From contig JAOAEA010000005.1 in the NCBI GenBank assembly GCA_026417035.1, forward strand, positions 1-64,000: a stretch of DNA of 64,000 nucleotides. Direction: 5' to 3'. The DNA is from Burkholderiales bacterium (GTDB lineage: Bacteria > Pseudomonadota > Gammaproteobacteria > Burkholderiales > SG8-39). The position numbers and the translations under genes are program-made. A model generated the notes under the pieces. It had not been told where the DNA came from, did not search any database, and saw only the letters and a list, made by a program, of their open reading frames with translations. Positions 1,805 through 49,823 of this stretch are shown piece by piece; positions within the stretch are counted from its first letter, which is position 1; each line of letters opens with the position of its first letter.

Positions 1805-3007
1805 ATGGCGCTATTCACCTACAAGGCAATCGACGCCTCCGGCAAGGCGGTCATCGGCCAGCTGGAGGCGGTGAACCCGGTCGACCTCGAGCTCCGCCTC
1901 AAGCGGATGGGGCTCGACCTGGTCGTCGGCGGACAGGCCAAGCGCGCCGGCGGCGTCGGCGGCGCGCGCGTGAAGCGTGCCGACCTCATCAACTTCTGCT
2001 TCCATCTCGAGCAGCTGACGCGGGCCGGCGTGCCGCTCGTCGACGGCCTCGCCGACCTGCGCGATTCCACCGAGAACCCGCGCTTCCGCGAGGTCATCTC
2101 CGGCCTGATCGAGAGCATCCAGGGCGGCCAGAACCTCTCGCAGGCCCTGGCGAGCCATCCGACCGTGTTCAACCCCGTCTTCCGCAGCCTGATCCGCGCC
2201 GGCGAGGACACCGGGCGGCTGCCGGAGGTGCTGAAGAGCCTCAACGAGAACCTGAAGTGGGAGGACGAGCTCGCCGCGCAGACGAAGAAGATCATCATGT
2301 ACCCGGCGTTCGTCGGGTCGATCGTCGTGCTCGTCACGTTGTTCCTCATGGTGTACCTCGTCCCGCAGATGGTCGGGTTCATCAAGAACATGGGGCAGGC
2401 AATCCCGTTCCACACCCAGGCGCTGATCGCCGTCTCGGGATTCCTGGTGAAGTACTGGTGGGCGGTGTTCCTCGTGCCGGCGGCGATCGCGCTCGTCGTC
2501 TACGTCCTCGCCCGGACCAACCCCGGCGTGCGCTACCAGCTCGACGCGCTGAAGCTACGCATTCCGCTGGTCGGCCCGATCCTGCGCAAGATCATCCTCT
2601 CGCGCTTCGCGAGCATCTTCGCCCTGATGTATTCCTCGGGCATCACGATCCTCGACGCCATCCGCAGCTCCGAGGAAACCGCGGGCAACCTGGTGATCCA
2701 GGAGGGTCTGCGCGCCGCGGGCCAGCAGATCGGCGAGGGCAAGAACGTCACCGCCGCGTTCCAGGAGGTGGGCCTCTTCCCGCCGCTGGTGATCCGCATG
2801 CTTCGGGTCGGCGAGAACACCGGGGCGCTCGACACGGCGCTCCTCAACGTGAGCTACTTCTACAACCGCGAAGTCCGCGAGGGCATCGGGCGGATCCAGG
2901 TCATGATCGAGCCGGCGCTGACGGTGCTCCTCGGGGTTATCCTCGGCTGGGTCATGCTCTCGGTCCTCGGACCGATTTACGACACGATCAGCAAGCTGAA
3001 GATCTGA
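1805..3007 (+). CDS. GspF/PilC/MshG-type inner-membrane platform protein
   Basis: MALFTYKAIDASGKAVIGQLEA N-terminus, two repeated T2SSF domains, FCFHLEQLTRAGVPLVDGL and FALMYSSGITILDAI motifs. Confidence 0.93.
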   Translation: MALFTYKAIDASGKAVIGQLEAVNPVDLELRLKRMGLDLVVGGQAKRAGGVGGARVKRADLINFCFHLEQLTRAGVPLVDGLADLRDSTENPRFREVISGLIESIQGGQNLSQALASHPTVFNPVFRSLIRAGEDTGRLPEVLKSLNENLKWEDELAAQTKKIIMYPAFVGSIVVLVTLFLMVYLVPQMVGFIKNMGQAIPFHTQALIAVSGFLVKYWWAVFLVPAAIALVVYVLARTNPGVRYQLDALKLRIPLVGPILRKIILSRFASIFALMYSSGITILDAIRSSEETAGNLVIQEGLRAAGQQIGEGKNVTAAFQEVGLFPPLVIRMLRVGENTGALDTALLNVSYFYNREVREGIGRIQVMIEPALTVLLGVILGWVMLSVLGPIYDTISKLKI

Positions 3008-3256: not shown

Positions 3257-4798
3257 ATGCCCGAGAAGCGCGTCCTCTACCTCACTTCCGGCCTTCTCGC
3301 CGCCTACCGTGTCCGTCGCGGGACGGTGGAGCTCGACGCGCGGTTCGCGGAGACCGAGGAAGGCGTCGGCGCGTTCGACAGCTACGCGCGGAGCCTCGGC
3401 GACGCGCTCGTGTATTTCCTCGCGGACCTGGTCGAAGAGGACTTCCTGCCGGAGACGATCCCGTTCGTGCGCGGCGGCGACCGCCGCGCCCTCCTCGAGC
3501 GCCGGCTCGCGCAGCGTTACCGCGACGCGAGCCTGTCGCTCGTGCAGTCGCTCGGGACCGAGCGCACGCAGCGGCGCGAGGAGCGGATCCTGCTCTCCGC
3601 CTTCACCAACACGCAGCCGTTCGTGCCCTGGCTCACGGCGCTCCGCGAGGCCGGTGTCGCCGTCGTCGGCGTCTACTCGGTCGCGCAGCTCGCGCCGCGC
3701 CTCATGCGCGCCGCTGGCAAGAAGAAGGAAGCGGCGCTGGTCGTCACCCTCGACGCCGCGGGGCTGCGGCAGTCCTACGTCGAGGGCGGCCGGCTGCGTT
3801 TCAGCCGCCTGAGTCCGCTCGCCGCCGCCGACGTGGCATCGCCGGAGCGCACGGCCGGGGCCTTCGGCCGCGAGACGGTGCGGCTTCAGCAGTATCTCGT
3901 CTCGTCCCGGGCGATGGCGCGCGAGGGCGAGCGGCTCGACGCCGTCATGATCACGCCGCCCGGGCTGCGGGCCGCCACGCAGGCGTTCGTCGCCGACAAC
4001 GGCGTCGTCGCGGCGACGGTCCTCGACCTGCAGGACGCGATGACGGCGATCGGCCTGCGGCACCGGCCGCCCGACGCCGGCGCCGAGGTCCTCTACGTCT
4101 ACCTCGTCGCGATGTCCGCGCCGCGCGCGCAGTACGCGCGCGAAAGCCTGCGCGGGCGATACCGCGTGCACCAGGTTCGCAACGCGATCATGGCGGCGGG
4201 CGGTGCGCTCTTCTTCGCCGGCCTCGCGGTCGCGGCTTACGACTTGGTCGGCGTCCTGAGGATCCAGGGCGCGATCGAGCAGGACCAGCGGCAGCTCGCG
4301 CTCGCCAACGAGCAGTACGGCCGCATCACGGCGCGCTTCCCCGCGATGCCGACCACGACCGAGAGCCTGCGCGTCGCGATGACGCAGTACGGGGAGCTCA
4401 CCAGGCGGACGGTCGCGCCCGAGGCGCTGCTCGCCGAGCTGAGCGAAGCCCTGCAGCTGTCGCCGCGCATCGAGCTCGACAGCATCCGCTGGGAGCGCTC
4501 GGACACGCCGCCGCCCGGCCTCGCGACGCCTCAGGGCGCGCCGCCGCGCAGCGGCCCCTACGAGGTCGCCACCGTGAACGGGCGCGTGCTCGCTGCCCGT
4601 GCCTCGGACTACCGCAACATCACCAACCTCGTGAACGAGTTCATCGCCAACCTCAAGCGGCGCCCGGGACTGGAGGTCGTGGCGGCCAGGCTGCCTTTCG
4701 ACGTCGGCTCCCAGACGAGCCTCTCCGGGGACATCGGCGCCGAAAGGAGCGACGTCCCCACGTTCACGGTCACCGTCGTGCGGAGGCTCGCACCGTGA
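3257..4798 (+). CDS. PilM/GspL-like protein with PilN-like C-terminal TM domain
   Basis: Operon position; N-terminal actin-like (PilM/GspL) half, one central TM (IMAAGGALFFAGLAVAAYDLVGVL) and PilN-like periplasmic tail. Confidence 0.6.
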   Translation: MPEKRVLYLTSGLLAAYRVRRGTVELDARFAETEEGVGAFDSYARSLGDALVYFLADLVEEDFLPETIPFVRGGDRRALLERRLAQRYRDASLSLVQSLGTERTQRREERILLSAFTNTQPFVPWLTALREAGVAVVGVYSVAQLAPRLMRAAGKKKEAALVVTLDAAGLRQSYVEGGRLRFSRLSPLAAADVASPERTAGAFGRETVRLQQYLVSSRAMAREGERLDAVMITPPGLRAATQAFVADNGVVAATVLDLQDAMTAIGLRHRPPDAGAEVLYVYLVAMSAPRAQYARESLRGRYRVHQVRNAIMAAGGALFFAGLAVAAYDLVGVLRIQGAIEQDQRQLALANEQYGRITARFPAMPTTTESLRVAMTQYGELTRRTVAPEALLAELSEALQLSPRIELDSIRWERSDTPPPGLATPQGAPPRSGPYEVATVNGRVLAARASDYRNITNLVNEFIANLKRRPGLEVVAARLPFDVGSQTSLSGDIGAERSDVPTFTVTVVRRLAP

Positions 4799-8415: not shown

Positions 8416-8548
8416 CGCCGGGGCCCGGCGCGGGCATTTTCCTCATTTCGGCGTCGTGCGGTGGCCTCCGCCCGCGCTCGCGCATACAATCGCCGAGAGC
8501 ATCCCGCCCCGACTCGGCCGGCGGAGCACCCCTTTGCAGCCCGACCGC

Positions 8549-9844
8549 ATGAGCTACGCCACCACGCTCCTCCAGCGCCTGCGCACCGCCGGCGTGGAGC
8601 CGTCGGATTCCGAGGACGTGAAGCTCAAGAAGCAGCTCCTCATGTTCGCGATGGGGCTGATGACCGCGACGCCGGTGCTCTGGCTCGCGCTCTACTGGAT
8701 GATGGGGCTCGACGTGTCGGCGTCGCTCCCGTTCGGGTACCAGCTCGTGTCGCTCGCGACGCTGATCACGTACCTCGTCACCCTCAACTTCAACTTCTTC
8801 CGGGCCGCGCAGCTGGTCCTGTTCCTGTTCTTCCCGTTCGTGCTGCAGTGGAAGCTCGGCAACTTCATCACCGCGAGCGGGGTCGTCCTGTGGGGGCTGC
8901 TCGCCCCGATCGGCGCGATTCTCCTCTACAGCCCCCGGGAGTCGATCCCGTGGTTCGTCGCCTACGTGGTGCTGATCGCCGCCTCCGCGGCGATCGACTA
9001 CCAGCTCGCGGGCGTCGTGACGGTGCCGGCCATTCCCGAGCGCGCCAGCGTGGTCTTCTTCGCGCTCAATTTCATCGGCATGTCGAGCATCGTCTACTTC
9101 CTGCTCCGCTTCTCCACGGCCGAGCGCGACAAGTCGCAGGCGCACCTCGAGGAGACGCACCGTGCGCTGCAGGCGGAGCAGGAGCGCTCCGAGCGGCTGC
9201 TGCTCAACATCCTGCCCGGCCCGGTCGCCGAGCGGCTGAAGCAGGATGAGGGCACGATCGCCGACGGCTTCGCCGACGTGACGGTGATGTTCGCCGACAT
9301 CGTGAACTTCACGACGATCGCGGAAGGGATGTCCCCCAACCAGATCTTCTCGATGCTGAACAAGGTGTTCTCGTCCTTCGACGCGCTCGCGGAGAAGCAC
9401 GGGCTGGAGAAGATCAAGACGATCGGCGACGCCTACATGGTCGCCGGGGGGCTCGACACCGACGACAGCACCAACTACTCGGAGAAGATCGCCCTGATGG
9501 CGCTCGAGATGCGCGACATGCTCGAGCACGACCTCGGGGTGAACGAGCACCGGCTCCAGATCCGCATGGGCATCGGCACCGGCCCGGTGGTGGCCGGCGT
9601 CGTCGGCAAGAAGAAGTTCATCTACGACCTCTGGGGCGACACGGTCAACCTCGCGAGCCGCATCACCTCGGAGGCGGTCCCGGGGATGATCCAGGTGGAC
9701 GCGACGACCTATCGGCGCCTGCGCGCGAAGTTCGACTTCGACCCGCCCCACACGGTCTACCTCAAGGGCAAGGGTGACACCGTGATCTACCGGATGCGGG
9801 GCCTCAAGTCGGACGAGGCGCCGCGCGCAGCCGCGAGCGGCTGA
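8549..9844 (+). CDS. Membrane-anchored class III adenylate/guanylate cyclase
   Basis: About 6 TM segments, then catalytic domain VMFADIVNFT, EKIKTIGDAYMVAGG, FIYDLWGDTVNLASRI; Lys (EKIKT) and Asp (YDLWG) fit ATP specificity. Confidence 0.9.
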   Translation: MSYATTLLQRLRTAGVEPSDSEDVKLKKQLLMFAMGLMTATPVLWLALYWMMGLDVSASLPFGYQLVSLATLITYLVTLNFNFFRAAQLVLFLFFPFVLQWKLGNFITASGVVLWGLLAPIGAILLYSPRESIPWFVAYVVLIAASAAIDYQLAGVVTVPAIPERASVVFFALNFIGMSSIVYFLLRFSTAERDKSQAHLEETHRALQAEQERSERLLLNILPGPVAERLKQDEGTIADGFADVTVMFADIVNFTTIAEGMSPNQIFSMLNKVFSSFDALAEKHGLEKIKTIGDAYMVAGGLDTDDSTNYSEKIALMALEMRDMLEHDLGVNEHRLQIRMGIGTGPVVAGVVGKKKFIYDLWGDTVNLASRITSEAVPGMIQVDATTYRRLRAKFDFDPPHTVYLKGKGDTVIYRMRGLKSDEAPRAAASG

Positions 9845-9859
9845 AGGGCGGACGCGCGC

Positions 9860-11623
9860 TCAGGCGCGCGCGGCTGCCGCCTCCGCGGCGCGCTCCGGAC
9901 GCCGCACCGTCCCGGAGAGTTCGAAGCAGACGCGCCCGGCCTCGTTCGCCGCGAGCCGCAGGCTGAAGCCGGACATCTCCGCCTGCCGGGCGACCTGGTA
10001 GAGGCCGATGCCGTAGCCGGTCTCCGAGGGGACCGGGCCGCGCAGCAGCCCGTGGAGGACCTCGCCCGACACGGGCCGCCCGCTGTCGCAGACCTCGAGC
10101 ACGACGGTGTCCCGCGCCGCGAACGCCGCGGTCACCTTGAGACCCGGGTCGAGCTTGCGCTTGTCGAGCGCGTTCTGCAGCAGGTTCTCCGCGGCGCTGT
10201 CGAATAGCTCCTTCGGCAGCAGGATCTCGGGCTCGATCGTACCGGCGAGGAACTCGACGCCGCGCGGCTGGTAGATCTTCTGCAGCGCCTCCCACCACAC
10301 GGTCGCCTGAACGAAGCGCCCGCTCTCGACCTGCGGACGCTGCAGCTTGTCGAGCGTCTGCTGCAGGCGCTGCGTGACGGTCGGCAGATGCCGCCGGATC
10401 AGGGCCTGGAGCGCCGGCGAGTCGCCGGAGTCCTGCGCCGCGGCGGAGCAGAGGATGTTCAGCGACTGGAGCAGGTTCTTGACGTCGTGCGTCATGCGGG
10501 CGCCCGTCTCGTAGAGCGCCTGCACGTAGGTCTGCTGCTGCAGCTTCATCTCGCGCTGCTTGGCGATGTAGAACTGGCCGAGCAGCTGGCCGAGCAGGTT
10601 GAAGTGCCAGACGAGCGACGGGCTCGGGCGGTGCCGGCTGTAGAGCCGCACGCGCAGCTCGGGGCTCGCGAACTCGACGCTGTGCCGCGAGGTCACCCCG
10701 AAAGAGCCGCCGTCCGCTGCGGTCTTCCACTCGCCGCCCGTCACCCAGGGAAGACGACCGAGACCCTCGCAGGCGAGCCTGAGGAACTCGTCGGGCCGCG
10801 ACTCCGCCCGCGAGAGGTCGGCGAGGAAGTGCAGCCACTGCTCGAACGGCAGGCCGATCGAAAGGAGGTAGCGGGAGAAGAACATCGACAGTCCCGAGAA
10901 CCCGGCGCGCGGGTTCCAGGCGAGGCTCAGGAAGAGCAGCACGCCCGCGATCGTGAGCAGGCTGTAGGTGAGCGCGAACCCGTAGCTCGCGCCCCCCAGC
11001 GTCATGAAGGCGAACGCGCCGAGCACCAGCACGACGAGCAGCAGGAAGATGAGCGTCGAGTAGAAAAAGTCGACGATCTGCGGCTCGGCGATGTCGGACT
11101 CGACGGGCAGCACGAGCATCACCATGAACAGCGCCGGCAGGCCGATCTGCACGAGTGCGACGATCTCGGGCTCGAGGCGGCCGAGGGCGAAGCCGTTGGG
11201 GACGATCCAGAGCAACAGGAGCGAGACGAGGTAGAAGAGCACCAGCAGGTAGAAGACGCGCAGCCACCGCGCCTGGAAGAGGAAGACCTTGCCGCCCACG
11301 AGCCCGGCCAGCACGGACGCCCAGAGCCCGAGCATCCACCAGTTGAGGTAGAAGAGCACCGCGCCGCCGACGACCGCGACGCCGAGCGTCTCGGCGAGCG
11401 TGAGCCTGCGCTGCCCCTGCATGAAGGGCTGCCAGAGCATGAAGAGGCCGAAGTGCGCGAGCATGAGCCCGCGGGCCCAGAAGTCCTGGACGCCGCGCAT
11501 CGCGGCGAAATAGAGGAGCACGAGCATGGCGACGAGGAGCAGGCGCCAATGCCGTGCCGTGAACTGCCGGGATGCCTCGGAAAGGGTCGTCCGCACCGTG
11601 TATGCCCGCTCCCGGGGCGGCAT
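9860..11623 (-). CDS. Multi-TM sensor histidine kinase (PrsK-like architecture); ORF could start at 11710
   Basis: About 10 TM helices; H-box ARMTHDVKNLLQSL; N-box AENLLQNALDKR; G1 VCDSGRPV; G2 GYGIGLYQV. Confidence 0.8.
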   Translation of the reverse strand: MPPRERAYTVRTTLSEASRQFTARHWRLLLVAMLVLLYFAAMRGVQDFWARGLMLAHFGLFMLWQPFMQGQRRLTLAETLGVAVVGGAVLFYLNWWMLGLWASVLAGLVGGKVFLFQARWLRVFYLLVLFYLVSLLLLWIVPNGFALGRLEPEIVALVQIGLPALFMVMLVLPVESDIAEPQIVDFFYSTLIFLLLVVLVLGAFAFMTLGGASYGFALTYSLLTIAGVLLFLSLAWNPRAGFSGLSMFFSRYLLSIGLPFEQWLHFLADLSRAESRPDEFLRLACEGLGRLPWVTGGEWKTAADGGSFGVTSRHSVEFASPELRVRLYSRHRPSPSLVWHFNLLGQLLGQFYIAKQREMKLQQQTYVQALYETGARMTHDVKNLLQSLNILCSAAAQDSGDSPALQALIRRHLPTVTQRLQQTLDKLQRPQVESGRFVQATVWWEALQKIYQPRGVEFLAGTIEPEILLPKELFDSAAENLLQNALDKRKLDPGLKVTAAFAARDTVVLEVCDSGRPVSGEVLHGLLRGPVPSETGYGIGLYQVARQAEMSGFSLRLAANEAGRVCFELSGTVRRPERAAEAAAARA

Positions 11624-11681
11624 TCTCCCGCGGAACCGCCGTCCTTGGCGAGGGGGCAGGTTCCGTGCCATTCTTCGCGAG

Positions 11682-12455
11682 GTGAAAACCGCCCGCTTCG
11701 CGAGGACCATCGCCCGCTACACGCTCCTCGAGGCGCTGCGCAACCGCCTCGCGTGGCTCGCGCTCGCGGTCATCGGCGCGGCGCTCGGGGTCGCGGCGTT
11801 CCTGCACCAGGTGACGATCACCGAGTCGCGGGAGGTCGGGGCCGCCGTGGTCGCGGCCATGCTGCGGCTGGCGGCCGCGTTCCTTGTCGTCGCCTTCGTG
11901 GTGACGAGCATGGTCCGCGAGTTCAACGACAAGGTGCTCGAGATCGTCCTCGCCCGCCCCGTCCCCCGGGCGAGCTACCTTCTCGGCAAGTTCGTCGGCT
12001 TCTCGACCGCGGCGCTCGTCCTCGCGGTGGCCTTCGCGGCGCCCTTGGCCCTCTTCGCGCCGGCCGCACGCGTCATGCCATGGGCATTTTCGCTCGGCCT
12101 CGAGCTCGTGCTCATGGTCGCGGTCGGCCTCTTCTGCGTCCTCACCCTCACGAGCGTCGTCGCGGCGCTCGCGGCGGCAGCCGGGTTCTACCTGCTCGCC
12201 CGCTCCATCAGTGCCGCCCTCGTCATCGCCGCCGCGGGCGAAGGCTCCGCGCGCTGGACCGACCGCGTGGCCGACTGGACGGTGAGCGGGATCGCGCGCC
12301 TCGTCCCGGCGCTCGACCAGTGGACGCAGACGGCCTGGCTCGTGGTGGCGCCGCCGGACTGGGCGAACCTCGCCGGCATCGCGGCCCAGGCCGGCGTGTA
12401 CGTGCTGCTGATCGTCGCCGCGGCGCTCTTCGACTTCTACCGCCAGAACTTCTGA
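11682..12455 (+). CDS. ABC-2-like transporter permease
   Basis: GTG start in frame with ORF 11526..12455; YTLLEALRNRLAWLALAV start and MVREFNDKVLEIVLARPVPRASYLLGKFVG typical of ABC-2 permeases; 6 TM. Confidence 0.7.
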   Translation: MKTARFARTIARYTLLEALRNRLAWLALAVIGAALGVAAFLHQVTITESREVGAAVVAAMLRLAAAFLVVAFVVTSMVREFNDKVLEIVLARPVPRASYLLGKFVGFSTAALVLAVAFAAPLALFAPAARVMPWAFSLGLELVLMVAVGLFCVLTLTSVVAALAAAAGFYLLARSISAALVIAAAGEGSARWTDRVADWTVSGIARLVPALDQWTQTAWLVVAPPDWANLAGIAAQAGVYVLLIVAAALFDFYRQNF

Positions 12456-12526: not shown

Positions 12527-13276
12527 ATGGCCTTCAGGAGCAAGTTCGCGCGGGACGAGCGGCCGGTGAAGGACGTCCCGGCTTGGGTCCTCGCTTTGCT
12601 CGCGCTCGCGCTCGCCGGGCAGATCGCCGCCTCGCTCCTGCGGCCCGCGCCGTCGGCGTCGGCGCAGGACCTGCCCGCGCCGCCGCCGCAGGCGTTCCTT
12701 CGCCTCGCGAGCCTCGGGGAGCCGATCCCCACGGCCAAGCTGATGATGCTCTACCTGCAGAGCTTCGACTATCAGGCCGGGTCGCGCGTACCTTATCGCG
12801 ACCTCGACTACGAACGCGTCGTCGCCTGGCTCGACCGCATCGTGGATCTCGATCCTGCCGGCCAGTATCCGTTGCTCTCGGCGGCCCGGATCTACGCCGA
12901 AGTGCCGAATCCCGAGAAGCAGCGACGGATGCTCGACTTCGTCTACCGCCGCTACCTCGAAGACCCGAACCGGCGCTGGCCTTGGCTCGCCCACGCGGCC
13001 TACGTCGCGAAGCACCAGCTGAAGGATCTCCCGCTCGCGCGCGAGTACGCCGTAGCGCTGCAAAAGCACACGACGACGCCCGACGCGCCCCTGTGGGTGA
13101 AGACCATGGAGTTTTTCATCCTCGAGGACATGGACGAGCTCGAGGCTGCCAAAATTCTCCTTGGGGGCCTGCTCGCGAGCGGGCAAATTCGGGATGCCCG
13201 CGAGATGGCAATGCTCGAGGCGCGGCTCAAGGATCTCGAAGCGCGGGCCGCGGCCCAGAAGAAGGGCAAACCCTGA
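12527..13276 (+). CDS. Conserved hypothetical TPR-like membrane-anchored protein
   Basis: N-terminal TM and repeated helical units; no enzyme motif; follows the permease. Confidence 0.55.
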   Translation: MAFRSKFARDERPVKDVPAWVLALLALALAGQIAASLLRPAPSASAQDLPAPPPQAFLRLASLGEPIPTAKLMMLYLQSFDYQAGSRVPYRDLDYERVVAWLDRIVDLDPAGQYPLLSAARIYAEVPNPEKQRRMLDFVYRRYLEDPNRRWPWLAHAAYVAKHQLKDLPLAREYAVALQKHTTTPDAPLWVKTMEFFILEDMDELEAAKILLGGLLASGQIRDAREMAMLEARLKDLEARAAAQKKGKP

Positions 13277-13317
13277 CGGTTTGTCGGCATTCCGTCGCAA
13301 TCGTCCGTTTCTCGACG

Positions 13318-13347
13318 AAATCACGCCCGCAAGGGCGTGATTTCTTT
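13318..13347 (+). terminator. Strong hairpin terminator
   Basis: AAATCACGCCC-GCAA-GGGCGTGATTT-CTTTC, 11 bp perfect stem with GCAA loop. Confidence 0.75.
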
Positions 13348-13367
13348 CACGGGAGGCCCTTTCCGGC

Positions 13368-13383
13368 TGGCACCGAACTTGCT
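13368..13383 (+). promoter_or_regulatory. Sigma-54 (-24/-12) promoter for the first tandem prepilin
   Basis: TGGCAC-CGAAC-TTGCT matches consensus TGGCAC-N5-TTGCW; predicted start near 13393, ATG at 13432, RBS AAGGAG. Confidence 0.8.
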
Positions 13384-13431
13384 CGGACGTCGATAGCACC
13401 CGAATACCAAGGGACCAGTAAGGAGTCACCA

Positions 13432-14121
13432 ATGCGCATCAAAGCGGTTTACCCCCGCCAGACCGGTTTCACGCTCGTCGAGATCGCGATCGTGCTCGTG
13501 ATCATCGGCCTGCTCCTCGGCGGGATCCTCAAGGGCCAGGAGATGATCACGCAGGCCCGGATCAAGAACATGGTGAACGACTTCAACGGCGTCACCTCCG
13601 CTTACTTCTCCTACCAGGACCGCTACAAGGCGGTGGCCGGGGATGACGTCAACGCCGACACGCGCTGGACGTCCTTCGGCGCCAAGAAGGGGTCCGGAAA
13701 CGGCATCGTGGGTGGCGCGTACGATCAGTCGCCGCCATCGGATCCTTCCACGATCAACATCACGAGCGCCAGCGAGGGCCAAGAGGCGGTGAACTTCTGG
13801 TGGCACATGCGCCTCGCGGGCTTCATCCCCGGACCGACGTCGGGGCCTGGCGCTGCCACCCAGCCGACCAATGCCGTCGGCGGGCTGACGGGGGTTCAAA
13901 CCGGGGGTCTCGGGCTGACGAGCCTCGTGGTCTGCTCGGCGAACATCCCCGACAAGATCGCGAGCGCGGTGGACACGCAACTCGACGACCAAAAACCGGG
14001 CACCGGCTCCATGCGCGCGATGTTGCAGTCGGGATCGATCTCCGTGACCCCGACCAGCACCACACCGTCGAACTTCGAGGAAACGGGGGCAAACCAGTAC
14101 GTCCTCTGCAAGAGCATCTGA
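13432..14121 (+). CDS. Type IV prepilin, tandem paralogue 1
   Basis: QTGFTLVEIAIVLVIIGLLLGGILKGQEMITQARIKN; C-terminal Cys pair (LVVCSANIP...YVLCKSI). Confidence 0.88.
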   Translation: MRIKAVYPRQTGFTLVEIAIVLVIIGLLLGGILKGQEMITQARIKNMVNDFNGVTSAYFSYQDRYKAVAGDDVNADTRWTSFGAKKGSGNGIVGGAYDQSPPSDPSTINITSASEGQEAVNFWWHMRLAGFIPGPTSGPGAATQPTNAVGGLTGVQTGGLGLTSLVVCSANIPDKIASAVDTQLDDQKPGTGSMRAMLQSGSISVTPTSTTPSNFEETGANQYVLCKSI

Positions 14122-14145
14122 CGCACTTCCCAGTCGGGGTGCGGT

Positions 14146-14172
14146 AAGCCCGCCGGAAGGCGGGCTTTTTTT
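14146..14172 (+). terminator. Rho-independent terminator after prepilin 1
   Basis: AAGCCCGCC-GGAA-GGCGGGCTT-TTTTT. Confidence 0.88.
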
Positions 14173-14230
14173 CTCCGGGCGAGACAGCGAACCGGCCGCG
14201 AGAGCCGGGAGCGGGAAAGGAGGCACGGCG

Positions 14231-14926
14231 ATGAGAGTCCTTCCGGTAGGTCCCCGCCGTGAGCGGGGCTTCACCCTGGTCGAGATCGCCATCGTGCTCG
14301 TGATCATCGGCCTGCTCCTCGGCGGGATCCTGAAGGGGCAGGAAATGATCACCCAAGCGCGGATCAAGAACGCGGTCAACGATTTCAACGGCATCACCGC
14401 GGCCTACTTCGCCTACCAGGACCGCTACAAGGCGGTCGCCGGCGACGATCCGAACGGCGGGAGCCGCTGGAACGCCTTCGGCGCCAAGGGCGGCACCGGG
14501 AACGGCCGGATCGGCGGCACCTACAACATGCCGGTCGTGAGCCCGCTCACGCTCGACCCGTCGAAGGACGAAGCGCACGAGGCCCTGAACTTCTGGTGGC
14601 ACATGCGCCTCGCCGGATTCGTCGCGGGCCCGACTTCGGGCAACGGCGCCACCACGCAGCCCAACAACGCGGTGGGCGGGCTGATCGGCGTGCAGACGGG
14701 CGGGCTCGGCCTCCCCGGGCTGATCGTGTGCTCTTCGGGGATCCCCGACAAGATCGCCGCCGCGGTCGACACCCAGCTCGACGACCAGAAGTCGCAGTCC
14801 GGCACGATGCGCGCGATGGAACAGGTCTCGAGCGCCGACGTCGCGACGAACTCCACCCAGGCCGCTGCGGCGTCGTCGTTCCAGGAGACCGGCGCGAAGC
14901 AGTACGTGCTCTGCAAGGCGATCTGA
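14231..14926 (+). CDS. Type IV prepilin, tandem paralogue 2
   Basis: ERGFTLVEIAIVLVIIGLLLGGILKGQEMITQARIKNAVNDFNG; near-identical N-terminal third to paralogue 1. Confidence 0.88.
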   Translation: MRVLPVGPRRERGFTLVEIAIVLVIIGLLLGGILKGQEMITQARIKNAVNDFNGITAAYFAYQDRYKAVAGDDPNGGSRWNAFGAKGGTGNGRIGGTYNMPVVSPLTLDPSKDEAHEALNFWWHMRLAGFVAGPTSGNGATTQPNNAVGGLIGVQTGGLGLPGLIVCSSGIPDKIAAAVDTQLDDQKSQSGTMRAMEQVSSADVATNSTQAAAASSFQETGAKQYVLCKAI

Positions 14927-15133
14927 CGCCCCCCCCCGCGAGCGCGTACCGGGTGCGGGCCGAGCGAGCGCTCTGCACCTTGGGCCGCCGCCGTCGATCC
15001 TGCGCCGTGATTCCGTCACGAAGCCGCGACGGCGCGGACCCGGGACGCATGGCCCGGGCGTCGTTCTTGCTGGAGCCAGGGGATGGCGGGCCGGGAAAAA
15101 GCCCGCGCGGGCGCCGCGCCGCCCGAAAACAAG

Positions 15134-15832
15134 ATGAAGTTGCCGAAGCTCCTTCCCGGGCTCCGCCGCGAGCGGGGTCTCGCACTCATCGAGATCGCGG
15201 TGACGCTGGTCGTGGTCGCGCTGGTCCTCTCGGGGATCCTCGCGGCCCAGGAACTCATCACCCAGGGCCGGATCAAGGCCGTGGTCGCGGACTTCAACAG
15301 CCTCGCGGCCGCGTATTACGCATACCAGGACCGATACGCCGCTCTGCCCGGCGATGACTCGCACGCCGCGGCCCGGTGGGCCGCCGGGGCCGCGCGCGAC
15401 GGCAATGGCGACGGGTTCATCGCCGGCGGTTACGACGACACGCCCCCGGCCGCGTCGGCCATCGGCACCTTCCCGATCGACGCTACGGCCGGCGAAACGC
15501 TGAACTACTGGTGGCACCTGCGCCTCGCCGGCTTCGTCCCCCGGCCGGCGGGGCTCGCCAGCATGGCGTCGCAGCCCCAGAACGCGTTCGCCGGCGTGAT
15601 CGGCATCCAGATGAACGGCGCGGGCCTCGCCGGACCCACGCTCTGCCAGGCGAACCTTCCCGGGAAGATCGCCGCGGCGGTGGACGGCCAGCTCGACGAC
15701 ACGCGCCCCGCGACGGGCAGGGTGCGCGGCCTCCGGCAGACGGTGACGCCGCAGCCGCTCGCGACGGCCCTGCCGGTGGCCGCCTATCAGGAGGACGGGA
15801 GCTCCGTCTACGTCGTCTGCCGCTCGCAGTGA
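15134..15832 (+). CDS. Type IV prepilin-like protein, divergent tandem paralogue 3
   Basis: ERGLALIEIAVTLVVVALVLSGILAAQELITQGRIKAVVADFNSLAAAYYAYQDRYAALPGDD; Glu5 kept; C-terminal Cys pair kept. Confidence 0.8.
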   Translation: MKLPKLLPGLRRERGLALIEIAVTLVVVALVLSGILAAQELITQGRIKAVVADFNSLAAAYYAYQDRYAALPGDDSHAAARWAAGAARDGNGDGFIAGGYDDTPPAASAIGTFPIDATAGETLNYWWHLRLAGFVPRPAGLASMASQPQNAFAGVIGIQMNGAGLAGPTLCQANLPGKIAAAVDGQLDDTRPATGRVRGLRQTVTPQPLATALPVAAYQEDGSSVYVVCRSQ

Positions 15833-21835: not shown

Positions 21836-23263
21836 ATGAAGCAGACGCTGCAGATCAAGCTGTCGCAGCACCTCACGCTGACGCCGCAGCTGCAGCAGTC
21901 CATCCGGCTTCTCCAGCTCTCGACGCTCGAGCTGAACCAGGAGCTCGAGCGCTTCCTCGCCGACAACCCCCTGCTCGAACGCGAGGACGCCGAAGAGGCC
22001 CCGGGGCCGGGCGCGCGGGGCGCCGAGGCGGCCCCGGGCCCCGCCGAGGCGCCCGCGGCGGCCGACGCGGGCGCGGAGCGGCCCGAGCCGGAGACCCGCT
22101 TCGACGAGTCGGACTGGCTCGGCGAAGGGAGCTATGGGAGCGGCGCCCGCGACGACGAGGAAGGCGATTTCCCGCAGGTCGCCGCGGACGCGCCGACGCT
22201 GCGCGACCACCTGCTCGAACAGGTGTCGCTGACGCCGCTGCCGGCGCGCGACCGCGGGCTCGTGACGGTGCTCGTCGAGGCGCTCGACGAGGACGGCTAC
22301 CTCACGCAGTCGCTCGACGAAATCCGCGAAATGCTGCCGGCCGAGCTCGCGGTCGAGCCCGAGGAGCTCGCCGTCGCGCTCAGGCATCTCCAGAACCTCG
22401 ACCCGACCGGCGTCGGCGCGCGCAGCCCCGCCGAGTGCCTCGAGGTGCAGCTCGAGGCGCTTCCGCCCGCCACGCCGGCCCGCTCGCTCGCGCTGCGGAT
22501 CGTGCGCGAGCATCTGCCGCTCCTCGCGGCGCGCGACTTCGCGCGACTGCGCAAGGCGCTCGGCTGCGACGACGAGCACCTGCGTGCCGCGCAGCGCCTC
22601 ATCCAGAGCCTCAACCCGCGCCCCGGGGCCGCCTTCGCCCCGGTCGAGGCGCGCTACGTCGTGCCGGACGTGATCGTGAGGAAGGTGAAGAACGTCTGGG
22701 TGGCGCAGCTCAACCCCGACGCGATGCCGAAGCTGCGCATCAACCGGATGTACGCCGACATCCTGCAGCAAAACCGGGGCGGCCAGCTCTCGCAGCAGCT
22801 CCAGGAGGCGCGCTGGCTGATCAAGAACGTCCAGCAGCGCTTCGAGACCATCCAGCGGGTCGCCCAGGCGATCGTGGACCGCCAGCGCCATTTCTTCGAG
22901 CACGGCGAGGTGGCCATGCGCCCGCTCGTGCTGCGCGAGATCGCCGATCTCCTCGGCCTGCACGAATCGACCGTGTCGCGGGTGACGACGCAGAAGTTCA
23001 TGGCGACGCCGCGCGGCATCTTCGAGCTGAAGTACTTCTTCGGCAGCCACGTCGCGACGGAGACCGGCGGCGCCTGCTCGGCCACCGCCATCCGGGCGCT
23101 CATCAAGCAGCTCGTCGCCGCCGAGGACGCGCGAAAACCCCTCTCCGACGCGAAGATCTCCCAGCTCCTCGGCCAGCAGGGGATCGTCGTGGCCCGGCGG
23201 ACGATCGCCAAGTACCGGGAATCGCTGCACATTCCCCCGGTGAACCTGCGCAAGTCGCTGTGA
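21836..23263 (+). CDS. rpoN: RNA polymerase sigma-54 factor
   Basis: [38 protein letters not shown]-terminal RpoN box [21 protein letters not shown]. Confidence 0.97.
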
Positions 23264-33830: not shown

Positions 33831-36089
33831 CTAGAACCCGGTGTACGCGATCGAGATGCCGTAGAAGTTGTTCGTGTATCCGCCCGAGTTCTGGCCGGCG
33901 AAGATGGTCCGGTCGGAGGCCCACGGATTCACGCCGTCGTAGGCGTAGTCGAACGCGTTCAGCTTCTGGTACCACCAGTTCGCGCGTAGCGTCAGCGTCT
34001 TGGTGACCGCCCACTTGCCGTAGAGCTGGAACGAGTGCAGCGTGTACGTGGAGGGCGGCACCGCGAGCGGCGCCGGCACGAGCGCGGCGAGCGCCGGGCC
34101 CCAGGTGAGCCCGGTGTTGGTCCGGCCTTCGTTGTAGATGTAGGTCGCGCCCACGTCGATCTTCGTCGCGACGTTGTAGTTGGTGCCGAGGCCGTAGGTG
34201 TTCGACTTCTGCGCGAGGCTCGCCGTCCACAGCGCATTCTGGTTGTTGATGCCCTGGTTGATCTGCCGGCCGAACTGGTCGTTGCTCAGATCGCCATAGG
34301 TCGCGAACACGAACGTCGAGAGCGCCTCCGTGGGCCGCCATTGCAGGTCGGCCGTGTACGTCTGCCAGGACGAGGTCTGCAGGCCCATGCAGCGGTTCCC
34401 GTCGGGCCACGCGCCGGTCTGCGCACCGCAGTCGACGCCGCTCGACGGCTCGCTATACGAGCGCCGGCTCCAGTCGGCCGCGAGCGTCAGGTTGACCGTC
34501 TCGGAGAGGCCCAGGTCGGCCTGCGCGCGCACGCGGTTCTGTACGAAGTTGTTGAGGAAGTAAGGCGGGGTCGGCGGCGCGCCGGCGATCCAGGTGAAGT
34601 CGCTTCCGGACCGGTTCCAGTACTGATACTTGAGATAACCGGTGAAGAGCTCGGAAGCCGTCTGGCGCAGCTCGACGCCGACGATGTTGTCGTAGGTTCG
34701 CGCCCGGTCCTCGTCCACCCACTTCGTGTTGACGTAGGTGTAGTTGCCGCGCAAGAGCGTCCGCGCGAGGAGCTGATAGTCGGCCTCGACACTCGCCCGG
34801 TTGACCGTGTAGGAGCCGTACGGCGTGTTCTGCACGCCCGGCGCAGCCGCCTGCTGCAGCCCGCCGGGGACGACGCGGTAGAAGTTCTCGGCGGTCTTGT
34901 TGTTGTTGTCGTCATAGACGTACTTGGCGCGCAGCGTGAGGCGCGGCATCGGCCGGCCGTTCACCGCGATGTTGAAGAGCCACCGGTCGACCTTCCCGTC
35001 GAGCGAGCTCGTGGCCGGATTGCGGATCGCCCCGCCACCCGGCGCGAAGCCGATCGGCGCGTAGTAAGCGAGATACCCGGCGTCCTGCGTGCCCCAGCTG
35101 TATTGCAGCGAGCTGTTCACGCGCCAGCCGGGCATGAAGTTCCAGGCCCCTTGAGCGGTGATCTGGTTGAACGTGTTGCCCGGGTCGAGGCTCATCTGCC
35201 CGTAGCTGTTCGGATAGCCGCTGCCCGCCGGCCAGCCGGCGATGATCGAGAACGGGTTCTGCCAGATGAGCGAACTCGCGTCCGGCGAATACTTCGAGTA
35301 CCAGTAGGTGAGCTGCGCCTGGGCCTTGTCGGTGCTCCAGCGCAGGCCGGCGTCGAACTGGTGGGTCGTTTCGCTCACCGGCAGCGCCAGGGCGTTCGAC
35401 CGCGGGTTGCCGCCGGTCGCGAACATGGCGCCGTAGGTGAGGCGGTTGCCGTCCACGTTGTCCTGGCGGTAGTTCGCGTAGGTCTCGAAGTTGCCGCCGA
35501 AGAGGAGCTTGCCGCCGACCTGCCAGATGTCGCGCTGGGTGTCGAGGTCGAACGGGACCAGCGCGGCGTTGATGCGCGCCGGGTTCGTCCCCGCATTGGG
35601 GTTCGCGGTCGCGCCGATCACGCTGGTGCGCGCCACGAGGTTCGTGCCCCCGAGCCCGTCGAAGATGAACTTCGTCGAGTCCGACGCGTAGAAGGGCATC
35701 CCCTGGTAGGAGCCGTACACCGAGAAGCGCCCCTGCGAGGTGTAGCCGAGCGCGGCGTCGCGCGCGTCGAAGCCGAGGTTGTAGCCGTTCGCCCAGAAGT
35801 AATCCGGGCTGTCGCCGGCGCCGCGGCTCGAGTAGTTGAAGTTGCCGAGGACGTAGCCGCCGCGCTCGGTCATCCCCGTCCATTGCCCGAACTTGTACGA
35901 GTCCTGCGTGTTGAAGCCCCCGCCGATCTCGACGAAGTTGTCCGAGTACCGGGACATGTCGGTGCCCCGATAGAGGGGCGCCTGGAACATCGGCTCCGCG
36001 TGGGCCGTGCCCGCGGCGAGCAGCGCCGCGGCGACGGCGAGTGCGAGCGGCCGGCGCGCCGGCGCCGCGTTGTCTGTGCGGACTTTCAT
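33831..36089 (-). CDS. MtrB/PioB-family decaheme-associated outer-membrane beta-barrel
   Basis: Signal peptide; 752 aa with alternating aromatic beta-strands and terminal Phe (SIAYTGF); directly downstream of a decaheme cytochrome; Tyr/Asn-rich MtrB/PioB composition. Confidence 0.88.
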   Translation of the reverse strand: MKVRTDNAAPARRPLALAVAAALLAAGTAHAEPMFQAPLYRGTDMSRYSDNFVEIGGGFNTQDSYKFGQWTGMTERGGYVLGNFNYSSRGAGDSPDYFWANGYNLGFDARDAALGYTSQGRFSVYGSYQGMPFYASDSTKFIFDGLGGTNLVARTSVIGATANPNAGTNPARINAALVPFDLDTQRDIWQVGGKLLFGGNFETYANYRQDNVDGNRLTYGAMFATGGNPRSNALALPVSETTHQFDAGLRWSTDKAQAQLTYWYSKYSPDASSLIWQNPFSIIAGWPAGSGYPNSYGQMSLDPGNTFNQITAQGAWNFMPGWRVNSSLQYSWGTQDAGYLAYYAPIGFAPGGGAIRNPATSSLDGKVDRWLFNIAVNGRPMPRLTLRAKYVYDDNNNKTAENFYRVVPGGLQQAAAPGVQNTPYGSYTVNRASVEADYQLLARTLLRGNYTYVNTKWVDEDRARTYDNIVGVELRQTASELFTGYLKYQYWNRSGSDFTWIAGAPPTPPYFLNNFVQNRVRAQADLGLSETVNLTLAADWSRRSYSEPSSGVDCGAQTGAWPDGNRCMGLQTSSWQTYTADLQWRPTEALSTFVFATYGDLSNDQFGRQINQGINNQNALWTASLAQKSNTYGLGTNYNVATKIDVGATYIYNEGRTNTGLTWGPALAALVPAPLAVPPSTYTLHSFQLYGKWAVTKTLTLRANWWYQKLNAFDYAYDGVNPWASDRTIFAGQNSGGYTNNFYGISIAYTGF

Positions 36090-36121
36090 CGCTCAATCTC
36101 CCTTGACCCTTTCGCCTTCCG

Positions 36122-37090
36122 CTAGCGCGTGAAGGCGTTCCCCGACGGGTGGTTGCTGCCGTGCACCTTCGTGTGGCAGTTCGCGCAGGCCTGGCCGACC
36201 AGATAGGCGGTGTTGGCGTTGCCCAGGTTGCCCACGGTGTTCGACGGCAGCGCGTTGCCGCTGCGCAGCACGTTCGGGTGCTGGCCGATGATGTGGCACT
36301 GCTGGCAGAGGTACGGGCTGCGCGCGTTCAGCATCGGCGCGATGTTGGTCCCGTGCGGGTTGTGGCAGTTGCCGCAGTCCTCCACGACCGGCGGGTGCGG
36401 CCAGAGGAACGGCCCGCGCTTGCCTGCGTGGCAGGTGTAGCAGGTGTCGTTGACGCTGCTCTTCACGAGGCTGAAGCGCTCGCTCAGCGAGCCGTGCGGC
36501 GCGTGGCACGACGAGCAGCTCATCACCCCCTGCCGGATCGGGTGCGCGGAGACGGCGAACGTCTGCGCGCGCACGTCCTTGTGGCAGGTGTAGCAGACCC
36601 CGGCCTGCGTCGCGCGCACCAGCACCTGGTCCTTGGCGACGTGCACGCTGTGACAGCTCGAGCAGGAAGTCTGCGTCCGCTCGTGCGCGCTGCCGGCCCA
36701 CTGGATGAGGTGCCCGCCCTTGTGGCAGCTCGTGCAGGCCTCGCTCTGCGCCGCGGGCGTCGTGTGCGTGTCGTTGCGCTTGAAGGTGCGGTCGGGCTTC
36801 GGGCGCTCCGCCGCGCCGGCAGGCTTGTTGATGTGGCTCTCGCTCTCGCCGTGGCAGCTCGTGCACGTGGGCGTGCGCGCGTCGGCCTTGACCCCGTGCT
36901 TGGTCCTCGAGATGTCGAGGAGCGCCGGGTTGTCGTCCTGGTCGTGGCACTTGGTGCACTTGGCGTCGCCGCGCAGGACCAGATCCTTGGCCGGCGCGGC
37001 CGCGCCCTGGGCCTGGGCCCCCGCGGCCACGAACATCGCCAGCGCCGACGCCACGAGCGCCGACGCGACCCCTCTCCAGAGCTTTCGCAT
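36122..37090 (-). CDS. DmsE/MtrA/PioA-family periplasmic decaheme c-type cytochrome
   Basis: Signal peptide MRKLWRGVASALVASALAMFVAAGAQAQ; ten CXXCH motifs counted (CTKCH, CTSCH, CTSCH, CSSCH, CYTCH, CSSCH, CYTCH, CGNCH, CQQCH, CANCH). Confidence 0.95.
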   Translation of the reverse strand: MRKLWRGVASALVASALAMFVAAGAQAQGAAAPAKDLVLRGDAKCTKCHDQDDNPALLDISRTKHGVKADARTPTCTSCHGESESHINKPAGAAERPKPDRTFKRNDTHTTPAAQSEACTSCHKGGHLIQWAGSAHERTQTSCSSCHSVHVAKDQVLVRATQAGVCYTCHKDVRAQTFAVSAHPIRQGVMSCSSCHAPHGSLSERFSLVKSSVNDTCYTCHAGKRGPFLWPHPPVVEDCGNCHNPHGTNIAPMLNARSPYLCQQCHIIGQHPNVLRSGNALPSNTVGNLGNANTAYLVGQACANCHTKVHGSNHPSGNAFTR

Positions 37091-37153
37091 TCCCCGTCCC
37101 CTTCGGCTGCGGGCGCGGCGGTGTCCCGCTTCTTCGCCCGGTGTTTCTCGGAT

Positions 37154-37763
37154 TTACCCGCTCGTTCCCACCTTCAACTCACCCGGCCCCGGTCCGCCCT
37201 CGGGCTCGGTCTGCGCGATGCCCGAGTGGCCGTCGACGCAGGTCTTCCCCGCGGCCCCGCCCTTCTCATGCCCGGATCGGGCCCGTTTCCGACGCGAGGT
37301 CCGGGCTCATCGCGGCCTCGTCGCGGCAGTGGCGGCAGGGCCGCGAGTCGTTCGCCTCGAGCCGCAGCCACTCGCGCTTGGCCATCTCGTAACGCGGGGC
37401 GTTGTACTTCTCCGGCGTATCGATCACGCCCGTCGGATGGCCCCGCACCTCCCGCGCCGCCTCGACCTTGCGCACGAGCTTCCGTCCGGGCTCGAGGGGA
37501 ATAGGGCAATCGGCGCAGGTCGCACCCACCCCGGAGCGGTTCCTCGCGTGTCGTGTCCTTGTTCTCCTCGAAGGCGTGCTGCTTCCTCTCACGGCACGAA
37601 AACGCAGAACGCTTCGGTGCTCGTCGCGTGGAGCGCCTGCGCGCCGGCCCCGACCGCAGCCACCCCGATGCCGAGAACGACCAGCGCGGCGATGCCGACG
37701 CGCACGAGGACGACGAGCGGCCTCCCCGACTCGCCGCGGATCGCCGCCCAGATCCTGCCCCAT
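37154..37763 (-). pseudogene. Degenerate NapC/NirT/CymA-type tetraheme quinol dehydrogenase remnant
   Basis: Frame-corrected reading gives MGRIWAAIRG...TSTEAFCVSCRE...NRSGVGATCADCPIPLEPGRKLVRKVEAAREVRGHPTGVIDTPEKYNAPRYEMAKREWLRLEANDSRPCRHCRDEAAM...HEKGGAAGKTCVDGHSGIAQ; at least three frameshifts and all four CXXCH motifs altered. Confidence 0.78.
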
Positions 37764-37799
37764 GCCGCCGATCCCGCCCCCCGCGGTCGCCGACGCGAT

Positions 37800-38133
37800 C
37801 CAGCGGCTCAGGACGAACGCGAGCACGTTCCGGATCCCGGCCTCGTTCCTGGTCTTCCGCGCGTCGTGCGTCTCCTCCTTGCCGTCGACCTTGATCTCGG
37901 GATTGATCGTGACGAACGCGGTCACTTCCTTCTCGGCGTCGGCCTTACCCTTGAGCCGCGCGGCCGTCTCCTCGGACGAGGGGTCGTCCTTCGTGCGGTC
38001 CACGCCGTGGCACTTCAGACAGCCGCTCTTCTCGAGCAGCGCCTCGGCCGCGGCCGCATCCACCTGCGCGAACCGGCGCCGCGAGGCCGAGCGCAGCGAC
38101 GGCGGCTGCGACCGAAAGGCCTTGGCATTTCAC
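37800..38133 (-). pseudogene. Monoheme class I cytochrome c (MtoD-like position), signal peptide and mature part in different frames
   Basis: VKCQGLSVAAAVAALGLAAPVRA in one frame; AQVDAAAAEALLEKSGCLKCHGVDRTKDDPSSEETAARLKGKADAEKEVTAFVTINPEIKVDGKEETH...NVLAFVLSR in the next; CLKCH intact. Confidence 0.7.
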
Positions 38134-47846: not shown

Positions 47847-48758
47847 TCATCCCGAGTGCTTGCGGATCGCGGAGCGGATCTCGTCGATCGCGCGCTCGAT
47901 CTCGTCGTCGGTGAGGTGGGACTGCGCCTCGCCGGCCGCCTTGCCCCAGTCCGAGAGCTTGGTCGTCTTCTCGTTCGTCTCCATGGCGAGCGTCGAGATC
48001 CAGCTGCCAGCCTCCGCGACCTCGTCCGCCCAGGTCATGGCGACGACGGACAGGTTGTCGCGCTCCGCGCCGCCGCGCGCCTCGGCGAGGTCCATGAGCT
48101 GCGGGACGCCGTGCATCACGTCGCCGCTGGCGAGCCGCTCGCCGATCTCGCGGGCGCCGAGCGGGCCCCAGAACCCGTCCGTGCACAGGACGATCGTGTC
48201 GCCGTGCCGCAGCAGCGCCCGGCGCGAGAGCTCCACCTTCGGCGGCGTCATCTGGCCGAGGCAGTTGAAGATCTTGTTGCGCTCCGGGTGCACGCCGACC
48301 GCCTCCTCGCGCAGCCGCCCGAGGTCGACGAGCATCTGCACCCGCGAGTGGTCCTTGGTCTGCATCTCGACGCGGCCGTCGCGGACGAGGTAGAGCCGCG
48401 AATCGCCGACATGCGCCCAGTAGGCGACCCCGTCCTGCACGACGCAGGCCACGCACGTGGTGCGCGGCGTCTCGAGGAGCCGGCGCACCTCGGCGTAGTC
48501 GAGGATCGCGAAGTGCGCGTTGGTGATCGAGTCGAGGAGGAAGCGCACCGGGTCGGCGAGCTTGGGCGTCGCCTCGCGCTGGAACGCCTCGGCGATGAAC
48601 TGCACCGCGATCTGTGCCGCGACCTCGCCGTGCAGGTGCCCGCCCATGCCGTCGGCGACGATCATCACCACCGCGTCGCGGCTGTAGCAGTAGGCGACGC
48701 GGTCCTGGTTCTCGCGGCGCCCGCCGACGCGGCTCTCCTGGTAGATCGAAAACTTCAT
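47847..48758 (-). CDS. PP2C-family Ser/Thr protein phosphatase
   Basis: [74 protein letters not shown]. Confidence 0.92.
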
Positions 48759-48765
48759 CGCCGCG

Positions 48766-49713
48766 TCAGTGGCGCGCGAGCCGCGACAGCGCGCCGCGCA
48801 GGTTCAGGACGAAGGACTTCTTGCGCGCGATCTCGGGGTCGCGCTCGCGCAGCAGCACTTTCTGCAGCGCCATCGCGCTCTGCGGCCGCTTGAGGTGGTC
48901 GAGCTGCAGGCACCAGTCGATGGTCTCGAGCAGCTGCTCGGAGTAGCGTCCCGCGAAGAGCTGCGTGGCGGCGACGTAGCGATCCTTCTCCATGCGCAGG
49001 TCGGAAGCCTGCGGCGCCACCCCGGCGATGCAGGCGAACATGCTCGCGCCGACCGAGTACATGTCGCTCCACGGGCCGAGCAGCTCGCGGTTCTTGTACT
49101 GCTCCGGCGGCGCGAAGCCGGGCGTGTACATCGGGTTCAGCTTGAAGCCCCCCTGCACGAGCGTCTGGCGCGCGGCGCCGAAGTCGATGAGGACCGGGGT
49201 GCCGTCGTTGCGGATGTAGATGTTGGCCGGCTTGAGGTCGAGGTGCAGGAGCTTGTTCGCGTGCACCTCGCGCAGGCCGTTGAGCGCGAGGGTGAAGACC
49301 CGGCGGATGAAGTTCTCCTTGATCGCGCCCTTGCGCGCCTGGATGTACTCCTGCAGGGTGCGGCCGCGCTCGTAGCGCATCACGAGGTAGACGGTCTCGT
49401 TGGCGCGGAAGAAGTTGAGCACTCGCACGACGTTGGGGTGCGAGAGCCGCGCCAGGGCCCGTCCCTCCTCGAAGAAGCACTTCATGCCGTAGCGGAAGGT
49501 GGCGAGGTTCTCCTCCGAGATCGACGGCAGCGCATCGCCCTCGTGGCGCAGCGCGAGCGAGGAGGGCAGGTATTCCTTGATCGCGACCGGCTGGTCGTTC
49601 TCGTCGTGGGCGAGGTAGACGATCGAGAACCCGCCGCACGAGAGCATCTTCATGATGCGGTACGACTGCAGCTGATAGCCATCGGGGAGCGGCTGGTTCG
49701 CTTGCGACGGCAT
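48766..49713 (-). CDS. Eukaryotic-like Ser/Thr protein kinase
   Basis: LHLDLKPANIYIRNDGTPVLIDFGAAR catalytic loop; VAIKEYLPSSLALR; GFAPPEQYKNRELLGPWSDMYSVGASM. Confidence 0.9.
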   Translation of the reverse strand: MPSQANQPLPDGYQLQSYRIMKMLSCGGFSIVYLAHDENDQPVAIKEYLPSSLALRHEGDALPSISEENLATFRYGMKCFFEEGRALARLSHPNVVRVLNFFRANETVYLVMRYERGRTLQEYIQARKGAIKENFIRRVFTLALNGLREVHANKLLHLDLKPANIYIRNDGTPVLIDFGAARQTLVQGGFKLNPMYTPGFAPPEQYKNRELLGPWSDMYSVGASMFACIAGVAPQASDLRMEKDRYVAATQLFAGRYSEQLLETIDWCLQLDHLKRPQSAMALQKVLLRERDPEIARKKSFVLNLRGALSRLARH

Positions 49714-49823
49714 CGGCGGCTGCGGGCGGGAGAGCGCGGGTGTTATGAAAACGGCCGGATTTGCGCCCCATTTTCGGGGCTCGCCTGGCCAAAGTAAAGC
49801 GCCGCCCGACCGGAAAACCGCCA

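Follow-up and report, generated by a model that had tools for sequence, protein, structure and literature searches.

The described systems closest to the locus considered here are the PrsK-PrsR/PEP-CTERM system, the PilS-PilR system of P. aeruginosa pilA (PMC6058289) and Azoarcus pilAB (PMC3262810), and the MSHA locus of V. cholerae, with its mshI-F and mshB-Q operons (PMC4624765). In the first of these, a repeated enhancer motif is followed, across a spacer averaging 63 bp, by a sigma-54 site about 71 nt from the start (PMC1569441), and RpoN dependence has been demonstrated for pepA (PMC9850573). A search of the open-access literature, with most subscription journals outside its scope, returned nothing on the control of MSHA-type pilins by sigma-54 and an EBP.

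The present locus lies in a window of 64,000 nucleotides (the whole stretch of DNA analysed) from a draft Burkholderiales genome of 3.77 Mb, in 249 contigs and ~90% complete. It resembles PrsK/PrsR in its single-gene units, repeated enhancer, spacer of ~60 bp, sigma-54 site and distance of ~50-70 nt to the start codon; as there, a regulator of the NtrC family (Fis type) and a histidine kinase of the membrane track the distribution of the motif. It differs in that the target is a prepilin within a pilus cluster, in that the motif is TGTC-N8-GACA rather than a 17-nt motif ending in TTTACA, and in that the EBP gene does not adjoin that of the kinase. The regulator, hereafter the cluster EBP, is a 477-aa NtrC-family response regulator encoded on contig C218 (10807-12237) of the same genome. 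Among NCBIfam models it scores highest against that of PrsR, TIGR02915, at 367.9 bits where the cutoff is 502.6, and its score to the NtrC model is also below cutoff; the kinase (9860-11710) has no NCBIfam match at E<=1e-3, the PrsK model (TIGR02916) included. A PrsR identity for the cluster EBP was rejected on the TIGR02915 cutoff and the differing motif. The system thus appears to work like PrsK/PrsR but is not classed as a member of it, and it would add to PrsK/PrsR another example of an NtrC-family activator and kinase that are dedicated to one locus and follow a surface structure.

With PilS-PilR the locus shares a pilin sigma-54 promoter and an NtrC-family activator. It differs in belonging to an MSHA-like cluster and not to a pilA gene beside pilB; in that PilSR is encoded elsewhere in the genome; and in that covariation points to another activator. 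Because the covariation test for PilR failed, as described below, we do not class the locus under PilSR. As far as the available part of the source describes the V. cholerae MSHA locus (PMC4624765), the likeness extends to the secretin, the MshEN ATPase, the platform protein, the TPR protein and the prepilins, while the locus described here has in addition an EBP, a kinase and a cyclase of its own, as well as tandem prepilins 229-249 aa long and a sigma-54 promoter.

The promoter region of prepilin 1

The element TGGCAC-CGAAC-TTGCT (13368-13383, + strand) carries the GG and GC doublets of a -24/-12 promoter at fixed spacing, 48 nt from the ATG of prepilin 1 at 13432, with a predicted transcription start at about 13393-13395 and an AAGGAG resembling a ribosome-binding site, read from the sequence, at 13420-13430 (+). 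It is the only match to TGGCACN5TTGCW without mismatches in the window; when up to two mismatches are allowed, the window shows no enrichment (7 observed vs 14.9 expected). Across the genome there are 7 exact matches, compared with 1 for the reversed pattern. Two of the other exact sites stand before genes that, by reading, encode a PEP-CTERM protein and an ABC binding protein of the urea type, as one would expect of a functioning sigma-54 regulon. The window also holds rpoN itself (21836-23263, +), in its usual lptA-lptB-rpoN context and with all three sigma-54 domains (Sigma54_DBD, CBD and AID), and the genome encodes six strong sigma-54 activators (Sigma54_activat).

To place the element in a wider context, relatives of prepilin 1 were gathered, both in GTDB contigs and in genomes belonging to its order, and the 300 bp upstream of each copy were scanned with an approximate sigma-54 matrix modeled on the published consensus. 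Scores of at least 11.5 were obtained in 60 of 126 upstream regions, whereas the mirrored matrix and the opposite strand, as controls, gave 1 each; at a score of at least 14 the corresponding figures were 41, 0 and 1. The sites mostly lie 40-110 bp upstream of the prepilin gene and, in tandem arrays, nearly always precede the first copy only. On the evidence of its sequence and this comparison, the element at 13368-13383 is confirmed as conserved across many related bacteria, and it is very probably a genuine sigma-54 promoter. The initial annotation, which had described a canonical sigma-54 element at exact spacing with rpoN in the same window, is upheld on both points.

The same annotation placed the promoter just after a strong terminator, and this holds only in part. 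A strong hairpin, AATCACGCCC-GCAA-GGGCGTGATT (13319-13342, +), does precede the site and belongs to a fold of -25.9 kcal/mol (z -6.2); it has only a weak T tract, and no terminator was called there by the scan. The weak T tract would permit read-through, and one could suppose that the sigma-54 element is a chance resemblance, transcription of prepilin 1 starting instead at a sigma-70 promoter or reading through from upstream. We regard this as extremely improbable: dozens of relatives have the site in the same place, the controls being clean, it covaries with the cluster EBP, and no sigma-70-like promoter was found in 13200-15200. Taken together, the site, its phylogenetic conservation, the conserved enhancer described below, and the presence of rpoN and activators in the genome strongly support the prediction that prepilin 1 is under sigma-54 control.

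Between the enhancer and the promoter, and overlapping the hairpin, lies a CRP-like palindrome, GTGA-N6-TCAC (13337-13350, +), which is lineage-restricted and whose significance is speculative. Of 48 relatives, 10 (strict) or 12 (relaxed) contain it, in most cases with 31 or 22 bp to the -24 box, compared with 0.03 and 0.18 in mononucleotide shuffles, although the sequences are related and inheritance inflates the difference. Given the palindrome and a class III cyclase encoded in the cluster, a CRP-like input may be proposed, as a lead only. Prepilin 3 is preceded by CGTGATTCCGTCACG, which is related to the palindrome.

Tandem prepilin genes

Prepilin 1 (13432-14121, +; 229 aa) matches Pfam N_methyl, carries an N-methylation motif and has two C-terminal cysteines conserved in the alignment. 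Its AlphaFold model (pLDDT 88) has a long N-terminal helix as in pilins, and the best PDB matches in a fold search were the TcpA/CofA pilins, at a marginal level (best E 2.5e-3, TM 0.41-0.51). An intrinsic terminator with 9 pairs and a T tract was found by the terminator scan at 14146-14167 (+), after prepilin 1. The tandem arrangement previously reported is borne out, with three genes and not two: prepilin 2 (14231-14926, +) is 71% identical to prepilin 1, and the third gene (15083-15832, +) is 44% identical. Upstream of prepilin 2 there is no sigma-54 site (best score 1.6), and an intrinsic terminator precedes the gene; before prepilin 3 there is a degenerate sigma-54-like sequence, GGGCGTCGTTCTTGCT, at 15056-15071. 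This pattern agrees with the earlier view of prepilin 1 as the regulated copy, and it accounts for the regulation of one among several tandem prepilins. Like the initial annotation, we infer that prepilin 1 is the major subunit; a single-gene transcript under strong inducible control would suit such a role.

Departures from this arrangement occur among relatives. At L050:3887, the second tandem prepilin has a sigma-54-like site of its own (TGGCGCCTTTCTTGCT), unlike prepilin 2 of the window, and the second copy at L049 has a degenerate site similar to that of the window's prepilin 3. The window's genome also contains two more prepilin paralogues, on contigs C193 (9358-9987, -) and C181 (17927-18562, -); the former has GGGCACGCCGTTTGCT upstream and no strict dyad.

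Tandem dyads upstream of the promoter

The initial annotation described no enhancer but proposed looking for one upstream of the promoter, and the search recovered conserved tandem dyads at 13282-13317. In 48 non-redundant upstream regions of relatives, the words TGTC and GACA are enriched, and they combine as TGTC-N8-GACA, with 45 occurrences at a spacer of 8. The next most frequent spacers, 28 (19 occurrences) and 17 (10 occurrences), agree with the pairing of halves from adjacent dyads in a tandem. Dyads in these regions are most commonly separated as GACA-N4-TGTC, which places two dyads 20 bp apart, centre to centre; distances between the last dyad and the -24 box likewise cluster at 49-53 and 69-72 bp, a step of 20 bp. 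In the window, dyad 1 (TGTC-GGCATTCC-GTCG, 13282-13297, +) fits TGTC-N8-GACA with a 3' half that is degenerate relative to GACR, and dyad 2 (CGTC-CGTTTCTC-GACG, 13302-13317, +) begins 4 bp after it and ends 50 bp before the -24 box.

A relaxed form of the tandem dyad with up to two mismatches occurs at 24 places in the genome; with at most one mismatch, 13282-13317 is the sole match. The exact tandem dyad has 2 matches in 300 order-level genomes and none in 369 class-level genomes. In both cases a sigma-54 site and then a prepilin gene come after the dyads, and a kinase related by family to that at 9860-11710 is encoded divergently. The prepilin at one of them, in genome G032, had been missed by the protein search, hence this match serves as an out-of-sample check. 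On the pattern and its recurrence, 13282-13317 is a putative conserved enhancer and the genome's best match to the dyad pattern. The MSHA-like pilus of Burkholderiales is widespread and little studied, and the enhancer sequence is now available for searches.

The strict dyad is present in only 37 of 92 genomes that carry the cluster EBP, so the enhancer or the activator's specificity has diverged in the others, or the pattern is partly misread. Near-perfect sigma-54 sites with an EBP homologue and no TGTC-N8-GACA were observed at L161-L163, L171, L180, L183-L185 and L187 (families f21, f22 and f25); in such families the enhancer has perhaps diverged. Elsewhere in the window's genome, two exact TGGCAT-N5-TTGCA sites on contig C166 (18048 and 19836; L154 and L155) precede two tandem look-alike genes of about 500 aa and unknown family, and one of the two has a TGTC-N8-GACA dyad 219 bp upstream.

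Candidate activators

The initial annotation proposed a sigma-54 promoter, cited sigma-54/PilR control of major pilins in several Proteobacteria, and suggested that a PilR/NtrC-type activator be sought. PilR, the cluster EBP and other activators are indeed encoded in the genome, and control by sigma-54 is supported; the analogy with PilR is not. The sample for comparison comprised 123 prepilin-bearing genomes of the order, in which presence of the site was crossed with presence of the EBP and of PilR. The site is found in 76 of 92 genomes with the cluster EBP and in 5 of 31 without it (Fisher p=4e-11), under a rule that takes the 5'-most prepilin copy; in the window's genome (G000) and in G092 this selects spurious matches and scores both as lacking the site they possess, which works against the conclusion. 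For PilR the counts are 76 of 114 with and 5 of 9 without (p=0.49), a test whose power is limited by there being 9 genomes without PilR. Since the genomes are related, and many are incomplete, labels were also permuted within families, with G000 and G092 corrected by hand. Concordance between site and EBP is 104 of 123, where shuffles average 86 and reach at most 100 (p<=5e-5); for PilR, the within-family p is 0.56. Genomes with both EBP and site and genomes with neither are found side by side in single families (3 and 4 in f14, 3 and 2 in f34, 6 and 2 in f20, 3 and 1 in f48, 3 and 1 in f25). The EBP and prepilin genes lie within 40 kb of each other, on one contig and one strand, in 39 genomes. 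In five genomes the site is present although no EBP was detected; other members of their families have the EBP, and incomplete assembly is a possible reason.

PilR was the initial candidate, with an orthologue in 35 of 40 promoter-bearing genomes, and was dropped as the cluster EBP, with an orthologue in 38 of the 40, predicts the promoter better. In the window's genome, PilR (L129:3027-4385, -) and PilS (L129:4382-6013, -) were assigned on contig C166 by reading and context; no PilR equivalog is among the NCBIfam matches listed. The TGTC-type half-sites of the dyads recall the P. aeruginosa PilR site, which would favor this PilR as the activator of the promoter, as for pilA in Pseudomonas and Azoarcus. 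The encoded PilS/PilR pair and its wide distribution are compatible with such a role, and Azoarcus pilAB, which depends on PilR and whose sigma-54 start has been mapped, offers a precedent (PMC3262810). However, the presence of PilR does not predict the promoter, within families or overall; 25 genomes have PilR and a prepilin but neither the cluster EBP nor the site; and PilR is unlinked to the prepilin's cluster in the window's genome. We therefore consider activation by PilR unlikely. In its place stands a specific, testable regulator, where PilR had been a plausible default that now appears to be wrong.

The presence of six strong activators also raises the question of whether another of them—a NifA-like GAF protein on contig C112, NtrC, or one of the other NtrC-family proteins—acts on the dyads. 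The sequence TGTC-N8-GACA includes TGT-N10-ACA, the classical form of the NifA enhancer, and the model that fits the C112 protein best is that of NifA, at 468.8 bits, below the cutoff of 528.85. Yet this protein has no full-length orthologue in the other 39 of the 40 promoter-bearing genomes, and was dropped as a candidate for that reason; its matches listed elsewhere all score 305 bits or less, and almost every one is confined to the C-terminal AAA+/HTH part. NtrC sites, for their part, have a different consensus. Action of one of these other activators on the dyads is accordingly less probable still than action of PilR, and the cluster EBP is the preferred activator.

The MSHA-like cluster

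The window's contig (C204) begins inside a gene for an MshE-like assembly ATPase with an MshEN domain (99-1703, +; T2SSE E=1e-125, MshEN E=2e-16), which is cut by the contig start. It is followed by an MshG-like platform protein (1805-3007, +; T2SSF E=1.9e-49) and an MshI-like (GspL-type) protein (3257-4798, +), the latter assigned by synteny: it is 51% identical to the protein at the same place in genome G010, which has a weak GspL_C match. A class III adenylate/guanylate cyclase (8456-9844, +; Guanylate_cyc E=3.4e-54) is syntenic in G010, with 71% identity. Divergent from these is the membrane histidine kinase (9860-11710, -), with a HATPase_c domain and an H-box, MTHDVKNLLQSL, identified by reading; a homologue lies upstream of the prepilin on the opposite strand in 55 of 82 loci. 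The kinase is a candidate partner of the cluster EBP. Directly upstream of the enhancer is a conserved 249-aa protein of unknown family (12527-13276, +), which has no Pfam match and has a homologue in 66 of the 82 loci.

In G010 a single contig carries, in order, the EBP, an ATPase, a secretin, a TPR protein, the MshE-like ATPase, the MshG-like platform protein, the GspL-like protein and more small genes, and then prepilin-like genes, the cyclase, the divergent kinase, the conserved protein and the tandem prepilins. Contig C218 carries the EBP, an ExeA/MshM-like ATPase, a secretin and, at its end, the first 173 codons of the TPR (mshN) gene. Compared with the synteny of G010, the end of C218 and the start of C204 indicate that C218 is very probably the adjoining contig upstream of the window, with the EBP at the head of the same cluster. 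Between the window, C218 and G010 synteny, the cluster comprises a secretin, an MshE ATPase with MshEN, an MshG platform protein, an MshN-like TPR protein and prepilins; the labels MshM, J and K follow from position and reading only.

Proposed mechanism

The features above can be joined in a model in which the sigma-54 promoter drives prepilin 1 alone, with the cluster EBP acting on the dyads and the cluster kinase controlling it; we put the probability of this model as a whole at roughly 75%. A signal would reach the membrane histidine kinase, which would phosphorylate the cluster EBP. EBP dimers would then occupy both dyads, on the same face of the DNA because the dyads are stepped by 20 bp, and DNA looping would bring them to the sigma-54 polymerase at 13368-13383. 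The resulting transcript would run from about 13394 to 14146-14167 and include prepilin 1 only. Binding of the EBP to the dyads, its pairing and phosphotransfer with the kinase, the signal and the looping are modeled on the behavior of the NtrC family; conservation of the promoter, its fixed spacing from the dyads, and the covariation and linkage of the EBP are observed in relatives. It is also possible, though we advance it as a doubtful extension, that in many Burkholderiales a dedicated cluster kinase/EBP pair, tandem dyads and sigma-54 switch an MSHA-like pilin, and that the window's lineage adds a cAMP/CRP-type input from the cyclase through 13337-13350.

Other features of the window

Two further groups of genes were observed in the window, both on the minus strand. 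Genes at 33831-38063 encode an MtrB/PioB-type outer-membrane porin, a multihaem cytochrome and a NapC/NirT-type cytochrome, possibly an extracellular electron transfer cluster. At 47847-49824, a PP2C phosphatase gene adjoins a protein kinase gene.
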